A stretch of DNA of 26,188 nucleotides. Source: a virus. The notes under the pieces were generated by a model that was not told the origin of the DNA, made no database searches, and saw only the letters and a list, made by a program, of their open reading frames with translations. The stretch is taken from the IMG/VR virus record IMGVR_UViG_3300046812_000633, positions 1-26,188 of that record. One strand, 5' to 3'. Within the stretch, counting starts at the first letter, position 1. The number at the start of each line of letters is the position of its first letter. Shown in pieces: positions 1,409-25,898 of this stretch. The position numbers and the translations under genes are program-made.

Positions 1409-1585
1409 GGTTTGGCCCAGCGCGAATTCGACAACGACTACCGGGTGATCGGCGTGACCGAAAAGCCTGACCCTGCAGCGATCGCCGCCGCGGTGCGCGC
1501 CTTCGTCGCTTTGCGACTGCTACGCCGCGCCACAGCACTGGGCGTCAAGCCCAGCGACCTGATGGACTCAGAATCGAATGCCTGA
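1403..1585 (+). CDS. Small protein carrying the regulator's C-terminal tail (60 aa)
   Basis: A 60-aa protein whose last third, ALGVKPSDLMDS, is identical in protein to the tail of the HTH regulator at 681-905, and identical in DNA over 29 bases. The first 45 residues (MNGLAQREFDNDYRVIGVTE onward) have no HTH resemblance, so it is either a remnant of a duplicated regulator or a chimera that kept the last helix. It overlaps the preceding zinc-protein gene by 4 bases and the integrase gene by 8, so it is probably translated with them. It might interfere with regulator dimerisation, or simply be debris maintained for coupling; neither can be decided from sequence. Confidence 0.6.
   Translation: MNGLAQREFDNDYRVIGVTEKPDPAAIAAAVRAFVALRLLRRATALGVKPSDLMDSESNA
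1544..1572 (+). repeat. 29-bp direct repeat, copy 2
   Basis: Second copy of the segment at 867-895, in the same reading frame relative to its gene and ending just before the integrase start codon. Confidence 0.9.
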
Positions 1586-3302
1586 GGCAACCATCGCGGC
1601 CTCATACGAGCGCGTCTCAACGCTCATCCAGGCTCAGCAGGGCTACAGTCTCGGCACACAGCGCAAGGATGCGACGCAGTTCGCCACCGAGAACAACCTG
1701 GTGCTGCCCGACGACCTGCGCTTCCGCGACGGCGAGGAGCACAGCGCATCTGGTGCTGATTGGAATCTGCCGTGGTTGAACGCGATGCTGAACGCTGCCA
1801 AAGAGCGCCGCTTCGAGATTCTGCTCGTCCCGTCGCACGATCGCTTCGCGCGCAACATGACCAAGGCGTTGGTGCTCGAGGAGCAGCTCCAACAGTACGG
1901 CGTGCGCGTGGTCTATATGAACGTGGCCGTCGACGACACGCCCGAGGGTCGTCTGCTGCGCAACCAGCTCCACGCTTTCAGCGAATACGACCGCGAGAAA
2001 CGCAAACTCGTCAGCATGCGCAACCGTCAGGCCAAGGCGGCAATGGGCCGTTGGGTGGGCGGCGGCCCGACGCCATACGGCTACCGATGCGTTCGCGAGT
2101 CGCGCGGCGCCGATCGCAAGGGGCGCGTCGTCGGGCTCGAGATCATCGAGTCGGAGGCGATGGTCCTGCGCGACCTCTATCGTCGAGCGCTGACAGATTC
2201 GATCTACGTGCTGGCAGCGCGGCTCAATGGGCTCGGGGTTATCGCACCCGGTTACAGTCGCGCCAAACGTGGTACGCGTAATCACTGGAGCCATGCCACC
2301 GTTGGGGGGCTACTCCACAACCGACTGTACATGGGCGAGGGGCACTACGGGCCGCATGCCATCAAAGTGCCGCCCATCGTCGACGCTACGTTGTTCGATA
2401 GCGTTGAGCTGGCACTCGCCGAGCGACACCGCCGCCCGAGTTTCTGGCGCACTCGCCAGGAGCAGCAGGAAGACCCGTTTCTGTTGCGCGGACGTCTGCG
2501 CTGCGGTCACTGCACTGGTCTCGACCGCGACGTGATCCTGCGCTGCGACCTGGTCGCCAGCGGTGGAGACCACATCCGCTACTACACGTGCCCGTATCGC
2601 TATGCCTCGCGGTTGGCGCGGACGCAGGCAACGACCACGGTGTGTGATCTCCCCAACATGCCAGCCGAACTGATCGAGGCGCGCGCGTGGGAGGACCTCA
2701 GCGCGGCGATCGCCAGACGTGAGGAGTTCGAGCGCGACTTGCTCGATTCTGAGGAACGCCACGCCGCGGCCTTGAAAGAACACGCGAGTCGACTCGAGGC
2801 GTTTCGTGCGCAGATCCAGAAGGCACAGCGTCGACTCGACTACCTCGTTAGCCGGCGCGCGGAGCTGGTCTCGGGCGACGACGACGAGGAGATCGGCGCT
2901 GTCGAGCGCAACCGTGCCGAAGCACTACGCCAGATTGCTGGCCTGCGCGAGGAAGAGGCCGCGCTGGTCGCCAATGTAGGCGAGCGGTCAAAGGGACTCA
3001 GTGCCGCGGACGTGACGCTGGTGCGTCAAGCCATTCAGGATCTAGAGCCGGACTTCGACGGGGTCACCGTAGCTGATCGCCGACAGCTACTCGATCTGCT
3101 CGATGTCGTTGGGGTGGTGCACGTCGACGTGGGCGAGAGCAAACTCAGCAAAGCACGCCCGCGCGGCTGGCACGCTTCGGTCACCTGGTACTCGCGCATT
3201 CGTGTGCGCACTGACCGTTCCGTGTTGAAGTACTGGTTAGTACTCACAAGATCAGGGCTGAGGTTGGACCGTGTCGAGCGGCTCGCCCAGGAAGCGGCGT
3301 AA
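1578..3302 (+). CDS. int: Large serine recombinase (phage integrase)
   Basis: A 574-aa large serine recombinase that would integrate and excise the phage by attP x attB recombination through a covalent phosphoserine intermediate. The N-terminal resolvase fold shows the nucleophile Ser14 in YERVST, the DRFARN motif near residue 90, and the long helix around EYDREKRKLVSMRNRQ. A recombinase domain follows (about 155-300, GGGPTPYGYR, then ATVGGLLHNRLYMGE). Next come a zinc ribbon with Cys309, Cys312, Cys338 and Cys356, and a coiled-coil region (about 370-470). Length is normal for the family. The ATG overlaps the preceding 60-aa gene by 8 bases. The gene is the last of the rightward lysogeny block, and attP is often close to such genes. 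Confidence 0.97.
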   Translation: MPEATIAASYERVSTLIQAQQGYSLGTQRKDATQFATENNLVLPDDLRFRDGEEHSASGADWNLPWLNAMLNAAKERRFEILLVPSHDRFARNMTKALVLEEQLQQYGVRVVYMNVAVDDTPEGRLLRNQLHAFSEYDREKRKLVSMRNRQAKAAMGRWVGGGPTPYGYRCVRESRGADRKGRVVGLEIIESEAMVLRDLYRRALTDSIYVLAARLNGLGVIAPGYSRAKRGTRNHWSHATVGGLLHNRLYMGEGHYGPHAIKVPPIVDATLFDSVELALAERHRRPSFWRTRQEQQEDPFLLRGRLRCGHCTGLDRDVILRCDLVASGGDHIRYYTCPYRYASRLARTQATTTVCDLPNMPAELIEARAWEDLSAAIARREEFERDLLDSEERHAAALKEHASRLEAFRAQIQKAQRRLDYLVSRRAELVSGDDDEEIGAVERNRAEALRQIAGLREEEAALVANVGERSKGLSAADVTLVRQAIQDLEPDFDGVTVADRRQLLDLLDVVGVVHVDVGESKLSKARPRGWHASVTWYSRIRVRTDRSVLKYWLVLTRSGLRLDRVERLAQEAA

Positions 3303-6065: not shown

Positions 6066-7112
6066 ATGGCTACTACTGACACCCGAGCGATTGTCACCAC
6101 TCAGGCCGCCGGCGCGCAGACGCCGCAGGACGCGGAGATCCGCCAGTGGGCGCAGGTCGTCGAGATGACCGGCGTCGACCTCGCCACGATTGCGCTGATC
6201 CGTCAGAAGCAGGGCAAGGACCCCGCTCCTCCGATCGAGATGGGCATGTTCCTGCACGCCTGCAAGCAGCTCGGCCTCGACCCGCTGTCCAATCAGGCGT
6301 ACTGGATCCGCCGCGCGGGGAAGGGCGCCCTGCAGGTCGGCATCGACGGGTTCCGCCTGATCGCCAGCCGGAGCGGGGCGTACGCCGGCAGCGAGCCGGC
6401 CGTCTTCCGCGGGACGCAGGAGTTGAAGGACGGCAACCGCACGCTGATAGTGCCGTCCGAGGCGCAGGTGGTGGTCTGGCGCATTGTCCAGGGACGGAAG
6501 TGCGCGTATACAGGCCAGGCGTTCTGGGACGAGTTTTATCCGGGCGATGGCCCGGTGGGGGCGATGTACCGCAGTAAGCCGAGGCTGATGCTGGCCAAAG
6601 ACGCCGAGGCGCAGGCTCTCCGAAAAGGGTTCGCGGCGGAACTGGTGGGTATGCCCGTGCGGGCGGTCGAGGTCGCTGAGGTCGAGGTCGAAGAGGTCAC
6701 TACACGCCCGGCCGCGCGGCCAGCGTTCAACCCGGCCGACTACGACCGCATCCACGGCAGCGAGGAGGACGGCACGTTTTACGATCAGCCGGCGCCAACC
6801 ACGCCGCCGCCTGGACGTGGTGAGGCGCCAACCTCACCACGTCGTCCAGACGAGGTTTTATCAGTCGACCCTGACACCGGCGAGGTCCTCGACCTGGTCG
6901 AGCAGCCTGGTCGACCCATCATCGCGGCGTGGGCGGACAATCGGAAGCTGGTGCAGCGGGCCCAGCAGCTCGGCCTGCAGGGTTTGCCGGTGCTGAACAA
7001 CCGCTCGCCGGATGACGTCGTGGCCGCGGCCAATCGCGACCTCACCGAACGCATACACAACCATGAGCTCGACCAGAAGCTCGTCGCGGAGCAGGCGAAG
7101 GCAGGCATCTGA
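6066..7112 (+). CDS. recT: RecT/Bet-family single-strand annealing protein
   Basis: A 348-aa protein whose first 200 residues match the RecT/Bet annealase family: EMGMFLHACKQLGLDPLSNQ, then YWIRRAGKGALQVGIDGFRL, GAYAGSEPAVFRG, and MYRSKPRLMLAKDAEAQALRK. Such proteins coat and anneal complementary single strands in phage recombination and replication restart, with an exonuclease partner. The C-terminal 130 residues are Pro/acid-rich and variable, ending in a helical piece. The ATG follows a strong Shine-Dalgarno GAGGAGGA by 6 bases, one of the few in the window. A VRR-NUC nuclease gene follows closely. Confidence 0.9.
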   Translation: MATTDTRAIVTTQAAGAQTPQDAEIRQWAQVVEMTGVDLATIALIRQKQGKDPAPPIEMGMFLHACKQLGLDPLSNQAYWIRRAGKGALQVGIDGFRLIASRSGAYAGSEPAVFRGTQELKDGNRTLIVPSEAQVVVWRIVQGRKCAYTGQAFWDEFYPGDGPVGAMYRSKPRLMLAKDAEAQALRKGFAAELVGMPVRAVEVAEVEVEEVTTRPAARPAFNPADYDRIHGSEEDGTFYDQPAPTTPPPGRGEAPTSPRRPDEVLSVDPDTGEVLDLVEQPGRPIIAAWADNRKLVQRAQQLGLQGLPVLNNRSPDDVVAAANRDLTERIHNHELDQKLVAEQAKAGI

Positions 7113-14909: not shown

Positions 14910-16760
14910 GTGCCGATAACTGCGCGACCCGATCCCAACAATCCCGGCAAGTTCATCTGGGTCGATTCGGCGACGGGTCAGCCAGCCACGCAACCTGGCG
15001 GCGCCAACACGCCGTATGTCGCGCCCAGCGACCAGCCCGCGCAGGCACCCGTCACCAACGTGAACATCGACCCCAACGCTAGCAAAGCGGCCACGTCCAC
15101 CACGGGTCCAGCCGCGGGCCCGGCTGCGCCAGGGTCGCCGAGCATGGGTGGCTACACCGTCTCGCAGGTCATCGGCGAGTCCGATGCCGAGCTGCTGAAA
15201 GCCAACACCGACGTCGCCAAGCTGTGGGATCAGATCAACGCCCAGAAAGTTCTCGTCGATCAGGCACAGAACGATCCCGCCACCATCGCCAACCCGGCGA
15301 AACTGACCGCCGCCACCAGCACCCTGAACGCGCTGTACTCGACTCTCAGCCAGGGCTTGCAGCGCGTCGAGACGGCCAACGCGTCGCGCAGCAAAACGCT
15401 CAACGACGCGATCCACGATGGGACCGTTGATCCAGGCCAGGTCCAGGTCGCGCAGTCCACCGCGGCGAAGGCCGACGCGGACGCTGGGCTGGCCAGGACG
15501 CAGGCGAAAGTCCTCGACGAGGGCTCAGACGGCCAGAAAGCGCTGGTTGCGGCCCAGGCAACGTCGGCCAGTGCCCAGGCGGCCTCGCTGCTGGCGACGG
15601 CCGCGGCAACCACGGCCAAGACGCCGGCGGAGATTGCCCAGCTCAACGCTCAGGCCAAGGCCCTGAACGCACAGGCCGACCAGACCAACGCGCTGCTGCC
15701 GGGTCTGATCGACAAGCAAAAAGCCGAGACCGGGCTGACCAACGCCCAGACCAGCCTCACCGGCTCGCAGTCACAGCTCGCCCAGGCCCAGGCCACGCAG
15801 GCGACGGCCAACGCGGGGCTGACAGACGCCCAGACGGCCCAGACGAAGGCACAGACCTCGACGCTGCTGCCGGCTCAGGTGGGGCTCGCGGGCGCCCAGG
15901 CGGGGCTGGCTGGGGCGCAGACGGCCCAGGCGCAGGCGGGCATTGAGAAAGACAAGCTGGGTCCGCTGTACGGGCTGCAGGACCAGATCAAGGCGATCCA
16001 GACGATTCAGCAGCAGGTGTTCGGTCCAGGTGGCTCGGGCGATCCCAACGAGGCCAACGACCTACTGAAACAGTTCACGACGGCGACGCTGTCGGGCACC
16101 ACGCCGTACGCGGCCAACGTTGCCGCGGCCAACGCCGGGCTGACCGCGTTCGGCACCCAGGCGTCATTGACGAATGCAGCCCAGGCAGCCGCGGCCTCGA
16201 GGGCGAACCAGTACACCGGGACGGCCGGCAGTGTGCTCGGCTCACTGCTGGGGGTGATGAAGGACGCGCCGGCGGGCTCACAGGCCCTCGGTCCCGCGTT
16301 CGCCGACGCGATGGGCCAGATTGCGCAGGGCACCCAGGCGCCTCAGTTTGCCGCGCCCCAGATGCCTCAGGCGCCCGCGTTGCCGGCGCTGCTGCAGAAG
16401 CTGGCGCCACCTGCCGCACCTACCGGCCCAGCACCCGCACCACCCATGCTCAGACCACCCGCCCCGGCGGCGGCGCCGACGACCGCACCGACGACCAGCG
16501 CGCCCGTGACGATCAACATTGGCGGCCAGGGCCAGTCGTCAGGTGCGCCGCCATCGTCACCGCAGCAATTCCCCGGTCTCGCCCAGGGCTCGAGCGCTCA
16601 GGGCACGGCGCTCTCGGCTGGCCCAGGCTTGCCGATGCCGAGCGTGCTTCAGAACTACGCACCGCCGACCACGGATTATGTCCACCAGTTGTGGGGCAAT
16701 GAGCTCGGCTCAGGCGCGGTGAAGTCACCGTATGCCGCGATCGGGCAGGGGGTTAGTTGA
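14910..16760 (+). CDS. Long Ala/Gln-rich helical virion protein (616 aa)
   Basis: A 616-aa GTG-started protein. The N-terminal 75 residues are Pro/Gly/Thr-rich. Residues about 85-350 are almost all helical, with recurring segments such as TNAQTSLTGSQSQLAQAQ, TDAQTAQTKAQ and AGLAGAQTAQAQAG, consistent with long coiled-coil or layered helices. The C-terminal third is Pro/Ala-rich. Proteins like this in podovirus-like phages are ejected internal proteins or tail-tube lining proteins, so an injected role is likely but inferred. Its stop shares a base with the next ATG. Confidence 0.7.
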   Translation: MPITARPDPNNPGKFIWVDSATGQPATQPGGANTPYVAPSDQPAQAPVTNVNIDPNASKAATSTTGPAAGPAAPGSPSMGGYTVSQVIGESDAELLKANTDVAKLWDQINAQKVLVDQAQNDPATIANPAKLTAATSTLNALYSTLSQGLQRVETANASRSKTLNDAIHDGTVDPGQVQVAQSTAAKADADAGLARTQAKVLDEGSDGQKALVAAQATSASAQAASLLATAAATTAKTPAEIAQLNAQAKALNAQADQTNALLPGLIDKQKAETGLTNAQTSLTGSQSQLAQAQATQATANAGLTDAQTAQTKAQTSTLLPAQVGLAGAQAGLAGAQTAQAQAGIEKDKLGPLYGLQDQIKAIQTIQQQVFGPGGSGDPNEANDLLKQFTTATLSGTTPYAANVAAANAGLTAFGTQASLTNAAQAAAASRANQYTGTAGSVLGSLLGVMKDAPAGSQALGPAFADAMGQIAQGTQAPQFAAPQMPQAPALPALLQKLAPPAAPTGPAPAPPMLRPPAPAAAPTTAPTTSAPVTINIGGQGQSSGAPPSSPQQFPGLAQGSSAQGTALSAGPGLPMPSVLQNYAPPTTDYVHQLWGNELGSGAVKSPYAAIGQGVS

Positions 16761-18400
16761 TGCCAACGTATGCGCTGCCGGATCCGTCAGGAAGCGGGAC
16801 GATCTATGCCAGCGGCAACTCGCTGCAGGAAGCCGAGCAGACCGCGGCCAGCGCGCGGGGCATGTCGTCGTGGACGGGTGGCAGCTTCGGTGGCGACAGC
16901 TCCTCAAGCGGCGGCACGGCACCGAATCCAGGCCCGACGACGATCAATCCTCAGGGCCTGGTCAACCCCAACCTGGGCGGTCTGAACGCGCTGGGTGCGC
17001 AGGTTTCGGGCGTTACCCAGCAGCAGCTCGCTCAGCAAAAAGCCGAGTTCGACGCGCAACTGCAGTTTGCGCAGCAGCAGATGCAGCAACTGGGCATTCC
17101 TCAGTTGCAGATCAACCAGCAACTCGCCCAACTGCAGCAGCAGCAGTTCCAGAGCCAGCTCGCCCTCGCCCAGCAGGCGCAGCAATACAGCCAGGCCGCC
17201 ACGACCGCGGGTCTGACGGGGTATTTCAACCCGCCGTCGGCTGTCCCCAGCGTCGCCCAGTGGACGAACCCAACCGGCGGCGGCACGACGGGCGGTGCTG
17301 GCGGCGCGACTGGCGGCGGCGCGGCGGCGGCAAATCCCCAGGATCAGTACGTTCAGGCCAGGACGCAGCAACTCATGAGCGTGGCCGGGATGGGCCAGGC
17401 GCAGGCGCAACAGACCGCGCAGTCCGAGTGGGGCCAGGGCTTCGCCCAGTCCGGCAATGTGGCCTACGGGATGCCCACGGGCTTCTCGATGGGCACCCAG
17501 CCGGCCGCCGGCGCGGCCGGTGGTGGTGCCACTGGGAATCCGCAGGACCAGTACCTGCAGGCGCGCATCCAGCAACTCATGAGTGTCGCGGGCATGCCCC
17601 AGGGCCAGGCTCAGCAGACGGCACAATCGGAGTGGAGCCAGGGGTTTGCCCAGAGTGGCAACGTCGCGTACGGCCTGCCCTCCGGCTACGGTACTGCCAG
17701 TCCCGGCGCCGCACCGGGCGCCTCAGACGGCACCCAGACGCCGGCAGGTGGTGGTGGCGGGGCTGGGCAGCAGACCCTCGCGGGTGCGCTCCAGCAAGCG
17801 CAACTCAGTGGCCAGTACCAGGGCGCACCGACCGAGGCCGCCAGTGAGTTCGCCCGTCAACTCGCCCAGGCGCAGCAACAGTTCGCCGCGCAACAGGCCC
17901 AGCAGCAGGCGCAATTCGAGCAGTCGTTCGGCTTACAGCAGGGCCAGCTCGGGCAGCAGTACCTGAGTACCGCGGCTCAGCTCCAGGGTCCGCAGAACAC
18001 GTTCCAGCTCTCGAATTATCTCCGCGGCGCGCAGGGTAATCAGGCCGTGCCGACGTATCTGCAGTCGCTGGCCAACAACGTCGGCATGCCGTCCTTCCAG
18101 GGAACGGGCAGCACGCCGCCGAATACGCAGACGGCCGCGGGTCTCGCCGGTCAGTTGGGCGGCACGACGTCGGCGACGCCAGGCTGGGACTACAACCAGA
18201 CGCTGGGCGCCATCCAGGGCATCATGGGCCAGGGCGCCCAGAGCCTCGGACCCGGTGCACTCGAGCGGCTGAGTCCGGACGAGCTCCAGGCGCTCGGCTC
18301 GGGCATCGGCGCCGCGGGCGGGTCATTGCCGTCGTTCCTGCAGCAGTACCAGCAGAGTCGCATCGGCCAGCAGGCCCCGACCCAGACCGCCCTGGCGTAG
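16760..18400 (+). CDS. Gln-rich virion protein with an internal tandem repeat (546 aa)
   Basis: A 546-aa protein extremely rich in Gln, Gly and Ala. After a Gly/Ser-rich start comes a Gln-rich coil (about 90-150). Then a 68-residue unit repeats at residues 192 and 260; the first 48 residues of each are identical at 42 positions (NPQDQY, then QQLMSVAGM and GFAQSGNVAYG). A second Gln-rich coil follows, then a Ser/Gly-containing end. The ATG at 16760 overlaps the previous stop; a TTG three bases earlier is not preferred. It is probably a structural or ejected partner of its neighbours; no family is recognised. Confidence 0.7.
   Translation: MPTYALPDPSGSGTIYASGNSLQEAEQTAASARGMSSWTGGSFGGDSSSSGGTAPNPGPTTINPQGLVNPNLGGLNALGAQVSGVTQQQLAQQKAEFDAQLQFAQQQMQQLGIPQLQINQQLAQLQQQQFQSQLALAQQAQQYSQAATTAGLTGYFNPPSAVPSVAQWTNPTGGGTTGGAGGATGGGAAAANPQDQYVQARTQQLMSVAGMGQAQAQQTAQSEWGQGFAQSGNVAYGMPTGFSMGTQPAAGAAGGGATGNPQDQYLQARIQQLMSVAGMPQGQAQQTAQSEWSQGFAQSGNVAYGLPSGYGTASPGAAPGASDGTQTPAGGGGGAGQQTLAGALQQAQLSGQYQGAPTEAASEFARQLAQAQQQFAAQQAQQQAQFEQSFGLQQGQLGQQYLSTAAQLQGPQNTFQLSNYLRGAQGNQAVPTYLQSLANNVGMPSFQGTGSTPPNTQTAAGLAGQLGGTTSATPGWDYNQTLGAIQGIMGQGAQSLGPGALERLSPDELQALGSGIGAAGGSLPSFLQQYQQSRIGQQAPTQTALA
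17333..17686 (+). repeat. Tandem 204-bp coding repeat, second unit partial
   Basis: Unit 1 runs 17333-17536 and unit 2 begins at 17537. About 150 bases of unit 2 clearly match. Many differences are synonymous (for example CCC CAG GAT CAG against CCG CAG GAC CAG), so the duplication is old and the protein sequence has been kept. Confidence 0.85.
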
Positions 18401-18403
18401 CGT

Positions 18404-21400
18404 ATGCCGAGCGGTATCTGGCTCGACGACGCGACCTACCTGCAAACGGCAGGGCAGTTGTGGGCGCAGCAGCAGACCCAGAACGTCCACGCCGGGGTGA
18501 ACTGGGCCCAGCAGGCGATGCAGGACACGGTTGGCCGCTTGCAGCAGATGGTGCCCCAGATCCCGACCACGCCCGCGCCAGCGCCGGCTGCACCTACCCC
18601 GGTCGCCCCGCCGCCCGTCGAAGCACCGCCACCGCCGATGCCCGCACCAGCGCCACCCGTGCCGATCGGGGGCCTGACGCCCGCAGCCGGTGCGCTGCCG
18701 GCACCCAGCGACCTGACCGGCGCGGGGATCACGCCACCACCGCCGGCGCCCACGCCACCGCCGGCTCCAATGCCGGTGCCCGCGCCCGCGCCGTCGACCC
18801 CCGATGTAGGCCAGAATTGGGCGCAGCAGCAGATCCAGAATCTGCTCAATCCGTCCACCGCTGGCCAGCAGACGCCGTCGCCGACTCCAGCCGCAGCAGC
18901 GCCTATTCCTGGCTTGCCCGCGGCTCAGCCCTCGTCTGACGCCACCTCAGCGCCGGCACCCGTATCAGGTGGTGTCTTCGCGCCGGACCAGACGGCCTCT
19001 GACCGTGTGCGTGGTCAGTCAGACGTGATTGCCCGCGCCAGCGCGAGCACGGGCACGCCTGCACCCGTTATTGCCGCGATCATGGACACCGAGGCAGGCG
19101 GTCCGACCTCGCGCAGTTCGCAGGGTGCCAACGGATTCATGCAGGTGCTGGACCAGCACTTCAAGCCGGGCGAGAACCCGTTCGATCCGACCACGAACAT
19201 CACGCGCGGCGCCGAGATCCTCGCCGACAACTACAAGCGCTACGGCAGTTGGGACAAGGCCGCCGCGGCGTATTTCGGCTCGATCGACGCCCAGGGCAAC
19301 ATCACCAACGCCAGCGATGCGAACGGCACCACCGGCAACAGCTACGTCAATCGCTTCCTGTCCAATCTGCAGCACTACGGTGGGGATGCCGCGGGTGCGG
19401 TCAAAGATGTCGCGCAGAGCGGACTGAGCGCGGTCAATACCGCCGTACAGGGCGTCCAGTCAGCGGTCGCGCGTACTTCCCAGTTCGGTCTGGGTCTGAG
19501 CTCGGGCGACGCGATGGCGTTCTGCGGGCCGACCGCGGCGATCGCCTTCGCCCAGTCCTTTGGCCGCAATCCGACCGTTCAGGAAGCCAAGCAACTCGCC
19601 CAGCAGGTTGGCTGGAATCCTGACCAGGGCATGGCCGGGCCGCAGTCCGAAGTCCAGCTGCTCAAGACGATGGGCGTGGATGCGCACATGACCGCGGGCG
19701 TGGACTGGGCCCAGGTCGGCCGCGACGCGTCCGGTGGCAACCCGGTCATTCTCGACACGCCTGGGCATTACTACTACGTCGACGGCTACAACCAGCAGAC
19801 CGGCCAGTTGCATGTCGGCACGTCGGGCACCGACCTGAAGGGTGGCTCGGAGTGGATGACGCCCGATCAGATCAACGCGATGCCGCAATCGCACGGCGGA
19901 GCTCGAGCGGCCATCTTCGCCGACCACCCACTGGCTCAGTCTGACGGTCTCGCCCAGTCAAGTGCACGGCTGACGATGGGCACGATGCAGCCAGGGTCAT
20001 CCGCTCCGCCTGATCTCGGGCAGTCGATCGGCCAGGCGGTCGGCAATGCGCCGCTGCCGTTCCTGGGTGGTCAGAGCATCTCAGACATCAGCGGGCTGCT
20101 CGGCCAGAACAGCCAGCAGTTGCAGCAGGGCCGCGACCTGGTCGGCGGCATCCTTTCGCCGGACTCGTCCACGTCAGGCGTCTTGCAGACGAAAGCCAAC
20201 AGCATCCTTCAGGCGGTCCAGGACGTCGGCTCGAGCGCGTCGAAGGCCGGGCAGGATTTGCTCAACCAGGGGCAGAACGTGCTGGGGAACGCGCAGAGCG
20301 ACATCTCGCAGGCGCCGACCACCATTCAGGGCATCCTGCAGCAGAATGCCCTGACGAGCCAGGGCATCCCGAATATCGGCGGCCAGGCGCTCGAGGGTGC
20401 GGGCAATCTGCTCGCTCCCCTGGGGCGGTTCGGGGGCGGCGCGCTGTCGGTTCTCGAGCAGCAGCGCCAGCAAGCTCTCCAGACGCCCGACCAGTTCACC
20501 CAGGCCGCCAACGTCCTCGACTCAGCGCGGCGGGGGGACATTCTGGGGACGCTGGGCGGCGGGGTCGGCCTGGGCCTGCAAGCCATCCAGCCGTTCATCG
20601 GTGGCTCCCAGGCCGACGTCAGCCCCGCTGTCTCGGCGGGGCTCGAGGCCGCGGGTGTGCCGCAGCCGTACTCGCAGATCCTGGGTCAGGCGGGGAATGT
20701 GCTCGCCGGGCCGGCCGTGGAGGCCGGCGCGCCGCGTCTGCTCGGTGCAGCCGAACGCTACCTGCCAGAGTTGGGTGGTGAGGTGCTGGGGCGGGGATTG
20801 GGCGCGCTGGACAGGCTCAGCCCACCGTCTGTGGCGTACGCGTCCACTCAGGGTGCCCCGCTCGAGGAGCAGGCGACGCGGATGTTCCACGGCACGGGCT
20901 CAGACTTCCCCAGGGTCGATCCGTCGGCGGTGAGCGGCGAGGACAATTTGTTCGGGCCGGGCTACTACCTGACGAGCGATCCGCGCGTTGCTGGTGGTGT
21001 CGTGGCGAGCGGTGGCGAGCAGGTGGGGCCGTCGTGGCTCAAGAGTTCAGTCAAACGAGCGCCGGGGTCCGTGATCAGCCGGGGCTATGCCCAGGAGACC
21101 GCACCACCGCCGGACAGTCTGAACATTCTTACCGACCAGGTGGACGGCATTCGTCAGGCGCTCCAGAACCCGGACCTATCTGAGAGTGGACGTACAGCGC
21201 TCGAGGATCTGCTCACGAAGGCTCAGACGCAGATCCAGCAGTTCGCTGGACCGAATGTTCGCGCCATCGACGTGCCGCAGAACCTGAACCTGTTTGACAT
21301 GGAACGCCCGGTGCCCGCGGACCAGGCTGAGGCGATCGCCAAACGGCTCTGGGGGCCGGATGCACTTGCAGATCCGGAGACGCGAGCCGAGGTCCAGAGC

Positions 21401-23752
21401 TGGTCGACGCCCGCTGTCGATGGTGCGTCGGTGTATGACACGATCCGCGGCGAGGTCGGCGACGGGAGCAAGACTGCTGCCAACCAGGTGCTCGCCGACG
21501 CCGGCTTCGATGGCATTCAGCACTCGGGCGGCAAGCGCATCCCGATGACCGACGCATCCGGCGTTCCCATCGAGCACGACGTCAATGTCATTTTCCCGGA
21601 TTCGCTCGACAAGGTCCGCAACGCGATCAGTGGCACGCAGGGCGGCATGGCATCGGCCGAGTTCGCGGCGCACCTGGGTGGTGCCGCGGCCGGCGGCCTG
21701 GCGGGCTACGAGACCACGCCCGACGATGCGTCGCCCCAGGAACGTGCGCTGCGCACCGCGCTCGGCGCTGGGGCTGGCTTCGCCGGAGTTGCGGGTGCCG
21801 GACAGGCGATGCGGCTTGCTCGAGCGGCGCCATCGGCCCCTGGTGGTATCAGCGCGGCCGACTGGCTTCAGGGTGCGTACAAGGGTGGCGTCATTGGCGG
21901 GCTCAACACGATGGCTGACGTGGCCTCGAATGCCACGCTCAGCCCCATCCTGAGCGCCGGCGCGGGGTACGTGCGGGATCTCGTGTCACTCTCACCGGGG
22001 CGCATGGCTGGCCGCACGCTGGGGGCCATGTCCGGCATCGCCGACTGGGGCGATCACTTCCTGGCCGGCCTGAGCGATTCGCTGTCACGCCCCACGTCGC
22101 TGTCGGCGCGGGCTGGCGGCGCGCCAAGAGTCATAGCGAATCTCATCGAGGGGATGGGTGCGTTGCATGGCGCGTTCCAGAACGCGACCTCGGAATTGAT
22201 CCAACGGATGGAGATGGGCGCCGCGGCGGGTGATGCTGCTGGCAACACCATTTTCAGTCCGGGCTGGAAGGGCAATTTCAGCACCGAGCTCGGGCGGCTA
22301 CCGGCGGACGTCGTTGCCCGCGCGCAGGCGGTGGGCGATCGGACCGCGGCCCGTGGCGATCTCGGCACACTGGCCAGTGCGTTCGGCAACTTCGTGAATC
22401 GTGCCGGCCCGATCGGCGACGCGTTGTTTCCCGTGTATCGCATGGGCATGGCGCTCGGCAGCCGCATGGTCGAGGCGTCACCGCTGGGCCTGGTCGGCAC
22501 GGGCTTCGACGTCGCGCGAGGCCTGGCTGGAAAAGGCCCGTACGCCGCGGGCCTGGGCAGCACGCCGACGGGCACGGCTGTCGGACCGCTCACCGAGCGG
22601 CTGACCAACAACATCATCGGCACCGTTGCCAGCATGTGGCTGGCCAACAAAGCCCTGGCCGGCCAGGTCACCGGCGATGGACCGACCGACCCCGGCCAGC
22701 ACCAGGCGTGGCTGGCGAATGGCAATCAGCCGAATAGCTTCATCGGACCCGACGGGGCCTACCACAGTTGGCAGAAACTGCCGCCGCAGTTGCGCGGTCC
22801 GTTGATGACCGCAGGGGCCTACGCGGATGCGTACCAGGCCTACGCCAAGGCCCTGGCGACCAAACAGACGGCCGGGCCACAGGCGTATGGCATTGAAGAG
22901 CCGCTCACCGCGGCGGCCTGGCAACTGGTGTCTGAGATTGGGCGTCAGGTGGCCTCAGCGACGCCGATGCGGACCCTCGCAGACCTGTACGACGCGGTCG
23001 GCTCGAGTTCGAACGCGTCCGGTGCTGGCATGAGCGCCGCGGGGGATGTTGCTTCGAAAGTCCTGGGCGGCATGGTCCCAGCCTCGGGCACGGTGCGTTC
23101 GGTGGCCGAGATGACTGACCCGACGCAACGCCAGACGCTGACGCCGCGCACGCTGCAGGAGTTGCCGCAGAGTGTCCTCGAGCACGTCGCCCAGAATATT
23201 CCTGGACTGCGGGAGGGCTTGCCCGCGCGCCAGGACGTGCTCGGGCGACCTATCAGCAACCCGTTGCAAGGCCTGGGGGAGCTGTTGCCGGTTCGGACTG
23301 CCGCGGGGCAGCAGACGCCGCTGCTCGAGGCGATGCAGCGTCTGGGGGTGGCGCCGTCCGGGCCGCCAGCCACGATTCCATACGGCCCAGCCAACGAGCT
23401 GCGGCTGAAGCCCCAGGAGCAGCGCGCCTTCGAGCAGTATCGCGGCCAGATCCTGGAACGGTCAGCCGCGCCGCTGGTGGCGTCGCCGCAGTTTCAACAG
23501 ATGCAGCCCTACGCGCAACGCGCGGCGCTTGAGCGTATCGACTCGGCCGCGGCGTCGGCCGCTGGTCGGATGGTGCTGGGCGACATCGTGCGCACGCCTG
23601 GCGCGGCCCAGAGCCGTATGCAGTCGACGGGCGTTCTCGCGCCAGTGGTGGGCTATGGCCCGGACATTCTCGGCAATCAATACACCGACCCAGGTGCGTC
23701 AGCACGTCTGGCCCAGCACCAGGCGCTCATCCAGTCGCTGCTGGGGAGCTAG
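18404..23752 (+). CDS. Giant polyvalent virion protein: lysozyme, C39-like peptidase, ART-like domain
   Basis: A 1782-aa protein. Residues 1-195 are a Gln-containing start and a long Pro/Ala linker. About 205-325 is a soluble lytic transglycosylase domain: Glu230 in MDTEAGG, GANGFMQVL, and AAAYFGS. About 366-500 resembles a C39/papain-like peptidase with Cys374 (AFCGPTAA) and His455 (PGHYYYVDGY). About 825-1075 looks like an ADP-ribosyltransferase of the polyvalent-protein type: His829 (FHGTG), Tyr854/Tyr855 (GPGYYLT), GFDGIQH near 1036, and HDVNVIFP. The C-terminal 480 residues, with NIPGLREGLPARQDVLGRPI (from 1598), resemble the LPD38-type region of large phage proteins. It is probably ejected into the host. 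It starts 3 bases after the previous gene. Confidence 0.88.
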   Translation: MPSGIWLDDATYLQTAGQLWAQQQTQNVHAGVNWAQQAMQDTVGRLQQMVPQIPTTPAPAPAAPTPVAPPPVEAPPPPMPAPAPPVPIGGLTPAAGALPAPSDLTGAGITPPPPAPTPPPAPMPVPAPAPSTPDVGQNWAQQQIQNLLNPSTAGQQTPSPTPAAAAPIPGLPAAQPSSDATSAPAPVSGGVFAPDQTASDRVRGQSDVIARASASTGTPAPVIAAIMDTEAGGPTSRSSQGANGFMQVLDQHFKPGENPFDPTTNITRGAEILADNYKRYGSWDKAAAAYFGSIDAQGNITNASDANGTTGNSYVNRFLSNLQHYGGDAAGAVKDVAQSGLSAVNTAVQGVQSAVARTSQFGLGLSSGDAMAFCGPTAAIAFAQSFGRNPTVQEAKQLAQQVGWNPDQGMAGPQSEVQLLKTMGVDAHMTAGVDWAQVGRDASGGNPVILDTPGHYYYVDGYNQQTGQLHVGTSGTDLKGGSEWMTPDQINAMPQSHGGARAAIFADHPLAQSDGLAQSSARLTMGTMQPGSSAPPDLGQSIGQAVGNAPLPFLGGQSISDISGLLGQNSQQLQQGRDLVGGILSPDSSTSGVLQTKANSILQAVQDVGSSASKAGQDLLNQGQNVLGNAQSDISQAPTTIQGILQQNALTSQGIPNIGGQALEGAGNLLAPLGRFGGGALSVLEQQRQQALQTPDQFTQAANVLDSARRGDILGTLGGGVGLGLQAIQPFIGGSQADVSPAVSAGLEAAGVPQPYSQILGQAGNVLAGPAVEAGAPRLLGAAERYLPELGGEVLGRGLGALDRLSPPSVAYASTQGAPLEEQATRMFHGTGSDFPRVDPSAVSGEDNLFGPGYYLTSDPRVAGGVVASGGEQVGPSWLKSSVKRAPGSVISRGYAQETAPPPDSLNILTDQVDGIRQALQNPDLSESGRTALEDLLTKAQTQIQQFAGPNVRAIDVPQNLNLFDMERPVPADQAEAIAKRLWGPDALADPETRAEVQSWSTPAVDGASVYDTIRGEVGDGSKTAANQVLADAGFDGIQHSGGKRIPMTDASGVPIEHDVNVIFPDSLDKVRNAISGTQGGMASAEFAAHLGGAAAGGLAGYETTPDDASPQERALRTALGAGAGFAGVAGAGQAMRLARAAPSAPGGISAADWLQGAYKGGVIGGLNTMADVASNATLSPILSAGAGYVRDLVSLSPGRMAGRTLGAMSGIADWGDHFLAGLSDSLSRPTSLSARAGGAPRVIANLIEGMGALHGAFQNATSELIQRMEMGAAAGDAAGNTIFSPGWKGNFSTELGRLPADVVARAQAVGDRTAARGDLGTLASAFGNFVNRAGPIGDALFPVYRMGMALGSRMVEASPLGLVGTGFDVARGLAGKGPYAAGLGSTPTGTAVGPLTERLTNNIIGTVASMWLANKALAGQVTGDGPTDPGQHQAWLANGNQPNSFIGPDGAYHSWQKLPPQLRGPLMTAGAYADAYQAYAKALATKQTAGPQAYGIEEPLTAAAWQLVSEIGRQVASATPMRTLADLYDAVGSSSNASGAGMSAAGDVASKVLGGMVPASGTVRSVAEMTDPTQRQTLTPRTLQELPQSVLEHVAQNIPGLREGLPARQDVLGRPISNPLQGLGELLPVRTAAGQQTPLLEAMQRLGVAPSGPPATIPYGPANELRLKPQEQRAFEQYRGQILERSAAPLVASPQFQQMQPYAQRAALERIDSAAASAAGRMVLGDIVRTPGAAQSRMQSTGVLAPVVGYGPDILGNQYTDPGASARLAQHQALIQSLLGS

Positions 23753-23970
23753 GGGTTGACCCAGAGCGGGCAAGTCATGGCGACCTGACCGCCCTCAGGC
23801 GTCGTAACCACCGAGCAGCCGCTGTACAGCAGGTGCAGGTAGGTGTCGCCGCCCATGCCCTGAATCCGGTAGGTGCTGTGCAGATTGAGCGCCAGAAGGG
23901 TCGCGCAGACCATTGCTGAAGCGATCAGGATCGCGAGGACCAGGGGCCAGGATTTAGACTGAGTCTGCAT
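23749..23970 (-). CDS. Leftward membrane protein (73 aa)
   Basis: A 73-aa protein on the opposite strand to the late genes. Residues 8-29 (WPLVLAILIASAMVCATLLA) are a membrane anchor or uncleaved signal. The rest (STYRIQGMGGDTYLHLLYSG, with Cys52 and Cys67) would be outside and could form a disulfide. The start is firm: AAGGAGGT (23979-23986) lies 8 bases upstream, the best Shine-Dalgarno in the window. Its TAG stop and that of the giant gene share the palindrome CTAG. A superinfection or lysis role is possible; no family is recognised. Confidence 0.75.
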   Translation of the reverse strand: MQTQSKSWPLVLAILIASAMVCATLLALNLHSTYRIQGMGGDTYLHLLYSGCSVVTTPEGGQVAMTCPLWVNP

Positions 23971-24106: not shown

Positions 24107-24970
24107 ATGCCAGACGCTGAGCCAGGCGCACCTGCCCCGACGAGTCCGGACGGCGAGTCCCAGGTCACCATCGCTCTCGGTCCCGATCAATCGATCTATC
24201 CCGAGAGCCTGAGACCCCCTGAGACCACGCCCGCACCACCCGCCGACGACGCACCGGAACCTGACGAAGCGACCGTCTCCGAACCGCCGCCCGAAAGCGC
24301 TGGAACCGTCCTCCCCCCCGAACAGGGTGAGACGCGGGGGACCCGCCGACGAGCTGCCGACGAGGCGTACCAGCGCGGGCTGGCAGAAGGTCAAGCCAAG
24401 CACGAACGGGAGCAGGCCGAACGCACACGCGCGCAGCAATACGAGCAAACCCAGCGCGAAGCCACGCAACGCGTGGACAGTCTCTTCCAGGACCTGGGGT
24501 CCAGTGACTGGGCCACCGTCGATCGGGCCCGTCGCGAGCTCGCACAGATGTACGGCGGTAACCGTGAGGCGCAACAGCTTCAGCAGGCCACGCGGCAGCA
24601 GATCCTGACCGAAATGGCCCAGGATTTCTCAAAGCTGCGCGACCTCGAGGGCATCACCGATGCCGACTATCAAGCCCTGCACTCGGCGCCGTCCGCGGCA
24701 GACCTGGCCAGGCGGGCCATCGACCTCGGCAAAAAGTCTCAGGGCGATCAAATCGCACGCCTCGAGGCTGAGTTGCAGGGTCTGCGCGGCCGACTGGTCG
24801 GCTCACGTGCGACACCCGAACGCGCCAATGGCAGCAGCCACTCAGATGGCAACGTTTCGATCGAGGAATACGCGACTCTGTCGCCGAAAGACGCCCGCAA
24901 GCTGAGCCCAGCGCAGATCGATGCGATGACCGCCCAGATGCGCGCCGACGCCGAGCGCAGTCGCAGCTAA
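24107..24970 (+). CDS. Scaffolding protein (probable)
   Basis: A 287-aa acidic helical protein directly before the major capsid gene, which is where scaffolds lie. The first 80 residues are Pro/Glu-rich and disordered. Then comes a long charged helix (DEAYQRGLAEGQAKHEREQA and on), a helical middle (LFQDLGSSDWATVDRARREL), and a second coil (QIARLEAELQGLRGRL). The C-terminus (EYATLSPKDARKLSPAQIDA) resembles the C-terminal helices by which scaffolds bind capsid protein. It would guide procapsid assembly and then leave. No sequence motif is diagnostic, so the call rests on composition and position. Confidence 0.75.
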   Translation: MPDAEPGAPAPTSPDGESQVTIALGPDQSIYPESLRPPETTPAPPADDAPEPDEATVSEPPPESAGTVLPPEQGETRGTRRRAADEAYQRGLAEGQAKHEREQAERTRAQQYEQTQREATQRVDSLFQDLGSSDWATVDRARRELAQMYGGNREAQQLQQATRQQILTEMAQDFSKLRDLEGITDADYQALHSAPSAADLARRAIDLGKKSQGDQIARLEAELQGLRGRLVGSRATPERANGSSHSDGNVSIEEYATLSPKDARKLSPAQIDAMTAQMRADAERSRS

Positions 24971-25016: not shown

Positions 25017-25898
25017 TTGGCCGACGTCACGATTACGACGGCCGCGCTCTACATCGACCAGGTCTGGTCGCCTGAACTCAATCGGGCTATCCAGTACGAC
25101 GTCGTGGTCGCGGCATTATTCGACGACAAAAGCGCGCTGGTCGACCAGCACGCCAACACCATCAACTTGCCGAGCAGGCACAACCTGACCGCCAACGCCA
25201 AGGCGGCGGGCACGGCACTCACGCCACAGGCCATCACCGAGACCCAGCAACAGTTCGTGTTGCCGATGACCAATGGGCACAGGGCCATCGCGCAAGAGAT
25301 CGAGGACATCGCCGAGATCCAGAGCCGGTACGACATCCGCTCCGAGACGACGATCGCCGGAGCGTATGCGCTCGCGCGTCAGATGGACGTGGATGCCGCG
25401 AGCCTGTTCGCCGCCGCGACCAACTCGAGCGGGACCTCGAGCGCGGAGCTGACCGACGACAACCTGATTCTTGCCCGCACCCTGCTGCGCAACAACGCCG
25501 CGCCCAGGCCCTGGTACATCGTGGTTCCGCCCGCGACCTACTCCGGTTTTCTCAAGCTCGAGAAATTCACCAACATGCTCTACATCGGTGAAAGCACCGA
25601 AGGCACGGCGGTGGAAGAGGCCAAGGTGGGCCGCATGTATGGCGCCGACGTGTATGAGTCGCAGTTGCTGGCCGGCTCAGCACCAGCCGCGACCGGTGCG
25701 TTCTGGTCGAAGACGCACTACTTCAAAGCTATCCAGCGTCAGCCCACCACCCACACCTGGTACAGCCCGCTCGACCTGGCCTGGATCGTCAGCATGGACT
25801 GCATCTACGGCATGTTCGAACGGTTGGAGGCCGACGAGGCCGCGGCAGCCACCACCAACTCGAGCAACTGGGCTGTCAAACTTTTATGCACGAAATGA
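25017..25898 (+). CDS. Major capsid protein
   Basis: A 293-aa capsid protein. The start, ADVTITTAALYIDQVWSPEL, followed by NRAIQYDVVVAALFDD and INLPSRHNLTANAK, is the typical opening of HK97-fold coat proteins of this kind. AIAQEIEDIAEIQSRYDIRS and GAYALARQMDVDAASLFAA form the spine-helix region, and NAAPRPWYIVVPPATYSGFL is the conserved domain-A segment. It builds the icosahedral shell on the scaffold. The start is TTG, unusual for the most abundant virion protein; no ATG or GTG lies in frame nearby. Its Shine-Dalgarno is inside a hairpin. Confidence 0.9.
   Translation: MADVTITTAALYIDQVWSPELNRAIQYDVVVAALFDDKSALVDQHANTINLPSRHNLTANAKAAGTALTPQAITETQQQFVLPMTNGHRAIAQEIEDIAEIQSRYDIRSETTIAGAYALARQMDVDAASLFAAATNSSGTSSAELTDDNLILARTLLRNNAAPRPWYIVVPPATYSGFLKLEKFTNMLYIGESTEGTAVEEAKVGRMYGADVYESQLLAGSAPAATGAFWSKTHYFKAIQRQPTTHTWYSPLDLAWIVSMDCIYGMFERLEADEAAAATTNSSNWAVKLLCTK

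Follow-up and report, generated by a model that had tools for sequence, protein, structure and literature searches.

The window analysed here, a 26-kb IMG/VR virus record taken at its full length of 26,188 nt, contains an open reading frame (ORF) for a protein of 1782 aa that begins with ATG and has no internal stops (GC3 = 0.81). The gene, the segments of its product and the neighbouring genes, all on the + strand, are laid out as follows:

14910-16760, +: 616-aa Ala/Gln-rich neighbour, probable ejection or core protein
16757-18400, +: 547-aa Gln-rich (19%) neighbour, probable second ejection protein
18404-23752, +: 1782-aa modular protein, probable internal virion (ejection) protein
18404-18583, +: conserved Gln/Trp N-terminal segment, residues 1-60
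18584-19003, +: Pro/Ala-rich linker, residues 61-200
19025-19273, +: SLT transglycosylase domain with catalytic Glu230, exchange slot 1
19421-19948, +: C39-like papain-fold peptidase with Cys374/His455, slot 2
20186-20428, +: conserved hinge, residues 595-675, found in 21 relatives
20429-20848, +: variable linker, residues 676-815
20861-21658, +: ART domain with H829, Y854/Y855 and D1036, slot 3 (cargo)
21848-23749, +: all-alpha C-terminal region, residues 1149-1782, internal-virion-protein-like
24107-24970, +: 287-aa protein, probable scaffold by position only, without a family match
25017-25898, +: major head protein (MCP; phrog_267, E 1.3e-29)

Identical ORFs occur in two other contigs, L002 and L005. 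The record to which L005 belongs (G002, 37,711 bases) is the same phage as the window, nearly without difference, as one mismatch was counted in 12,960 bases of one stretch and one in 13,044 bases of the other. G002 has a terminal repeat (116 bases or more) at its ends, so that its roughly 37.6 kb probably represent the complete genome. Besides the 1782-aa protein and the major head protein, it encodes an integrase of the large serine recombinase kind (window positions 1578-3302, + strand; phrog_95, E 8e-66), a RecT-like annealing protein (6066-7112), a terminase, a run of Ala/Gln/Pro-rich proteins, and a probable portal and a probable scaffold, the last two named from position and size only. 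The serine integrase and the RecT-like protein together suggest that the phage is probably temperate. Scans of genome contigs for prophages or hosts found none. The capsid distantly resembles that of Anabaena phage A-4L, none of the named phages being close.

The order probable portal - g201 - g616 - g547 - 1782-aa gene - g287 - MCP recurs in about 16-20 phages. The two adjoining Ala/Gln-rich proteins contain 19% and 10% Gln, so that the Gln-rich pair described in an earlier note on this DNA is real. The 547-aa neighbour also carries an internal duplication, the sequence NPQDQYxQARxQQLMSVAGM... being present twice.

Relatives of the 1782-aa protein were found in metagenomic contigs of uncultured phages, some of them truncated at an end. 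The N-terminal Gln/Trp segment is common to 19 relatives; its NWAQQ.. motif reappears at about residues 137-165, and most relatives likewise have a second copy. The Pro/Ala-rich stretch that the earlier note had pointed out is present, at about residues 51-200; that it separates an anchor from the enzymes and suits passage through a narrow channel, as the note imagined, is conjecture. The stretch is followed by the SLT domain (PF01464, residues 208-290), which passes the Pfam curated cut-off (E 8.5e-12, 45.1 bits against 21.3) and whose E230 is invariant across an 11-member hydrolase alignment, as expected of the transglycosylase region with Glu230 that had been proposed. Similarly, the C39-like region proposed around Cys374 and His455 matches Peptidase_C39_2 above cut-off (PF13529, residues 371-469; E 9.3e-6, 26.7 bits against 24), with further matches in L022, L023 and L006, and both residues are invariant in 14 C39 relatives. 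The position usually occupied by DP in C39 reads GTSG, as placed by eye in the alignment. D460 is nearly invariant and N463 invariant among these relatives, and either may serve as the third catalytic residue. Past the C39-like domain lies the hinge, which contains a Gly-Gly at 659-660; where it ends, similarity between relatives collapses.

The earlier note had also marked an ART-like H-Y region (His829, Tyr854/855). These residues are invariant in 25 of 25 ART sequences, and so is D1036, which adds a third conserved position to those of the note; nearly all of these proteins are at 33-66% identity. ART-PolyVal (PF18760) scores 14.3 bits in the window protein, below its curated cut-off of 31.2; among the 25 sequences, weak matches to this profile are seen in 16 (best E 1.2e-4), and 10 match DUF3990 (PF13151). 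Polyvalent ARTs have H on strand 1, Y on strand 2 and D on strand 5 (PMC5512222). In the structure model of the domain (pLDDT 78), H829, Y854/855 and D1036 sit at or beside strands 1, 2 and the DGI strand. A Foldseek search of BFVD matched the model to phage proteins named PolyVal ART (E 1.2e-4 to 5.8e-3; E 1.2e-4 and 2.7e-4 for two matches so named), with modest TM scores of 0.32-0.37 by query; against the PDB, Foldseek gave no significant match. Relatives and fold thus lend support to the ART assignment.

The C-terminal 634 residues are almost wholly helical. The internal virion protein family phrog_6651 is matched by 33 of 35 C-terminal relatives (best 4.6e-27), and the model of this region finds structural matches among large polyvalent proteins as well as among the internal virion proteins of Synechococcus podoviruses (E 3e-17 to 3e-10). 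The LPD38 (PF18857) profile found no match in the window protein, in 13 C-termini or in 10 contigs, the controls being silent too. In this weak test the name "LPD38-like" given to this region by the earlier note gained no support, while its kinship with polyvalent and internal virion proteins did so by profile and fold. Several unrelated enzymatic domains are carried on one chain with LPD-type regions, as in polyvalent proteins, and the location of the gene between the probable portal and the capsid, the phrog_6651 match and the podoviral internal-virion fold all agree with a polyvalent or internal virion protein. In the PDB, sequence searches run with the complete chain or with profiles of C39, ART and the C-terminus yielded no meaningful match. 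The SLT part alone has counterparts in named phages and plasmids, and a search of the named phages with the C39 part yielded no match.

In scans of viral contigs, 76 distinct C39-containing proteins were collected. Those that are complete range from 1301 to 2990 aa, and the distance from C39 to the C-terminal module varies from about 160 to 1900 residues. In a close group with portals at 84-100% and MCPs mostly at 84-100% identity, the surrounding genes are the same and the modules differ. Thus, L004 is 97% identical to the window protein in C39, 99% in the cargo/ART region and 99% in the C-terminus, against 27% in the hydrolase, which is a different SLT. L013 (portal 100%, MCP 99%) has the other SLT and a C-terminus at 40%, with ART absent. 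L015 (MCP 100%, portal 97%) also lacks ART and has a glucosaminidase-like domain in place of SLT, a call made from motif and alignment; the glucosaminidase of L023 passes Pfam. ART is absent from L012 as well, its C-terminus being 94% identical over the available part, and L006 differs from the window mainly in the linker before ART. At the DNA level the boundaries are sharp: the hydrolase exchange spans about 18900-19400, and that of linker and cargo starts at 20400. In relatives, slot 1 holds the other SLT type or a glucosaminidase, slot 2 holds Peptidase_M23 in a few cases, and slot 3 is empty or filled by GNAT (L067, L078, L059), DUF7178 (L078 and L058) or unknown cargo. Each of the four parts, from hydrolase and peptidase to cargo and C-terminus, is exchanged between close phages.

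In the wider family, most cargo slots gave no match in Pfam. Three giant relatives of 2689-2990 aa (L138 2293-11262, L053 1185-9575, L101 3307-11373) have cargo regions of at least 1000 residues without a strong Pfam match, where unknown effector domains are possible. In L108 (8503-15798) the module order is altered, with the glucosaminidase after C39 rather than before it.

The C39-like domain is the most conserved module of the protein (74-98% in the close group), its mean identity to the window over residues 340-515 being 89% compared to 29% for the hydrolase. Such conservation at first pointed to self-processing: after ejection, the protease would cleave its own chain and so release the cargo. 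Cysteine protease domains process the chain of multi-effector toxins, and for a zinc peptidase (MPTase) a self-processing role has been proposed in other polyvalent proteins. The position of C39 ahead of the cargo slot, the conserved hinge that follows it with its Gly-Gly, and the conserved xxGG end of the ART domain just ahead of a disordered stretch would all suit this explanation. However, three ART-bearing relatives that lack C39 have Peptidase_M23 in their N-terminal half (E 4e-19 to 5e-20), and M23 is a murein endopeptidase family. The replacement is seen between G011 and L166, whose DNA is about 80-98% identical upstream, up to about residue 300; beyond it, the place taken by C39 in G011 (174 bits) is taken by M23 in L166, and the two are alike again from near residue 500. 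At the position of the first M23 zinc ligand, L166 has Lys, compared with His in L168 and L169, so the L166 copy may be impaired. Separately, the ART of L166 (4087-8730) is matched by its profile at both ends only and lacks the middle portion; it is perhaps a decayed cargo.

The only recurrent Gly-Gly motif considered as a self-processing site, NAxSGxxGG, belongs to the ART module. It is also kept in M23-bearing proteins devoid of C39 (L166 and L168) and does not track C39, which led us to demote the self-processing explanation; we now consider it unlikely. The exchange of C39 for M23 between close phages, together with the placement of C39 directly behind the wall glycosidase, suggests instead that C39 is most likely a wall peptidase paired with the glycan cutter. 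A double role, in which C39 would cut wall peptides and also free the exchangeable effector by self-cleavage, seems quite improbable; if it were true, the ejected protein would work in the manner of autoprocessing multi-effector proteins, with a cargo that can be swapped.

Two further explanations bear on the protein as a whole. As the product of the largest gene, with wall hydrolases and an all-alpha C-terminus, it could be a structural protein of the tape-measure or tail-lysin kind in which ART is a fossil, and one relative does weakly match Tape_meas_lam_C (E 0.29). We find this very unlikely. Nearly all C-termini match the internal virion family and the fold is that of podoviral internal virion proteins; the gene lies between the probable portal and the capsid; the length of complete relatives varies in a way unlike that of a ruler; and the ART residues have stayed invariant across 25 proteins that are for the most part well diverged. 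Because every relative is a metagenomic contig, the exchanged modules might also be chimeras formed when related phages from mixed samples were assembled together. This too is very improbable, given that the window sequence was recovered in several contigs (L002, L005, L003), one of which (L005) closes on itself by the terminal repeat, that the other SLT type occurs with the same flanks in three contigs (L004, L012 and L013), and that the boundaries of exchange fall at domain edges in many pairs, distant ones included.

Altogether, these data make it fairly likely that the phage, which is probably temperate and probably has a short tail, uses the 1782-aa protein as its large ejection protein (an internal virion protein like T7 gp16) and that this protein is built as a polyvalent chassis. 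T7 gp16 combines a transglycosylase with a membrane- and DNA-handling C-terminus, and mosaic swapping has precedent among such proteins (PMC8954989). By analogy with gp16, the protein would be housed in the head with its two Gln/Ala-rich neighbours and exit via the tail at infection. The N-terminal half would then cut the wall, SLT (E230) acting on glycan strands and the C39-like domain (C374/H455) on stem peptides, and the helical C-terminal third would aid passage of DNA and protein over the inner membrane. ART would reach the cytoplasm and ADP-ribosylate an early host target; T4 Alt, which has another kind of ART, acts early in infection (PMC5512222). The domain may have a role in counter-defence, among other possibilities; it could also be inactive or target something other than a host protein. 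The swapping of enzymes between phages would occur by recombination within the conserved stretches between the slots.

Phage-type polyvalent proteins (Iyer et al. 2017, PMC5512222) similarly carry several enzymes on one virion-associated chain, with HYD-type ART, lysozyme and GNAT modules and domain shuffling. The present protein differs from them in that its peptidase is C39-like (papain fold) and outside their four listed peptidase superfamilies, that this peptidase is the most constant module, and that exchange takes place between phages whose capsid proteins differ little or not at all. T7 gp16 and the internal virion proteins of T7-like and cyanobacterial podoviruses (phrog_6651; PMC8954989) share with it the N-terminal transglycosylase, the helical C-terminus and a gene cluster of Ala/Gln-rich core proteins; unlike them, it carries an ART cargo and one more wall enzyme, and its gene is placed between the probable portal and the capsid. 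The ART resembles ART-PolyVal and DUF3990 in its H-Y-D residues, in the weak profile matches of relatives and in predicted fold; it differs in remaining below the curated cut-off and in a large helical insert from strand 2 to a GPNVR motif. C39-like domains are also found in the modular, wall-lysing endolysins of mycobacteriophages (PMC3314691), which are lysis enzymes, whereas the protein described here is probably a virion protein.

The suggestion of the earlier note that the domain order may be new holds in one respect, as the peptidase list of the founding polyvalent survey includes no papain-like or C39 enzyme (PMC5512222). No earlier report of the arrangement was found in the open literature searched, which does not prove its absence. 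Since domain shuffling is already known in polyvalent and internal virion proteins, we do not propose a new category; the features that set this protein apart are its C39 module and the clarity with which individual modules are seen to be exchanged among phages whose capsid proteins are identical or nearly so. A papain-like peptidase is thereby added to the polyvalent repertoire, and its exchange with M23 indicates its role. Phages that are almost the same except for a single enzyme of this probably ejected protein form a natural series, with which two questions become testable: the function of the cargo enzymes that phages inject, and whether the wall cutters of ejection proteins are matched to the host wall.

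At its 3' end, the 1782-aa gene is overlapped by a 73-aa ORF on the opposite strand (window positions 23749-23970, - strand; GC3 0.82). Its product has a hydrophobic N-terminal stretch and is possibly a small membrane protein.
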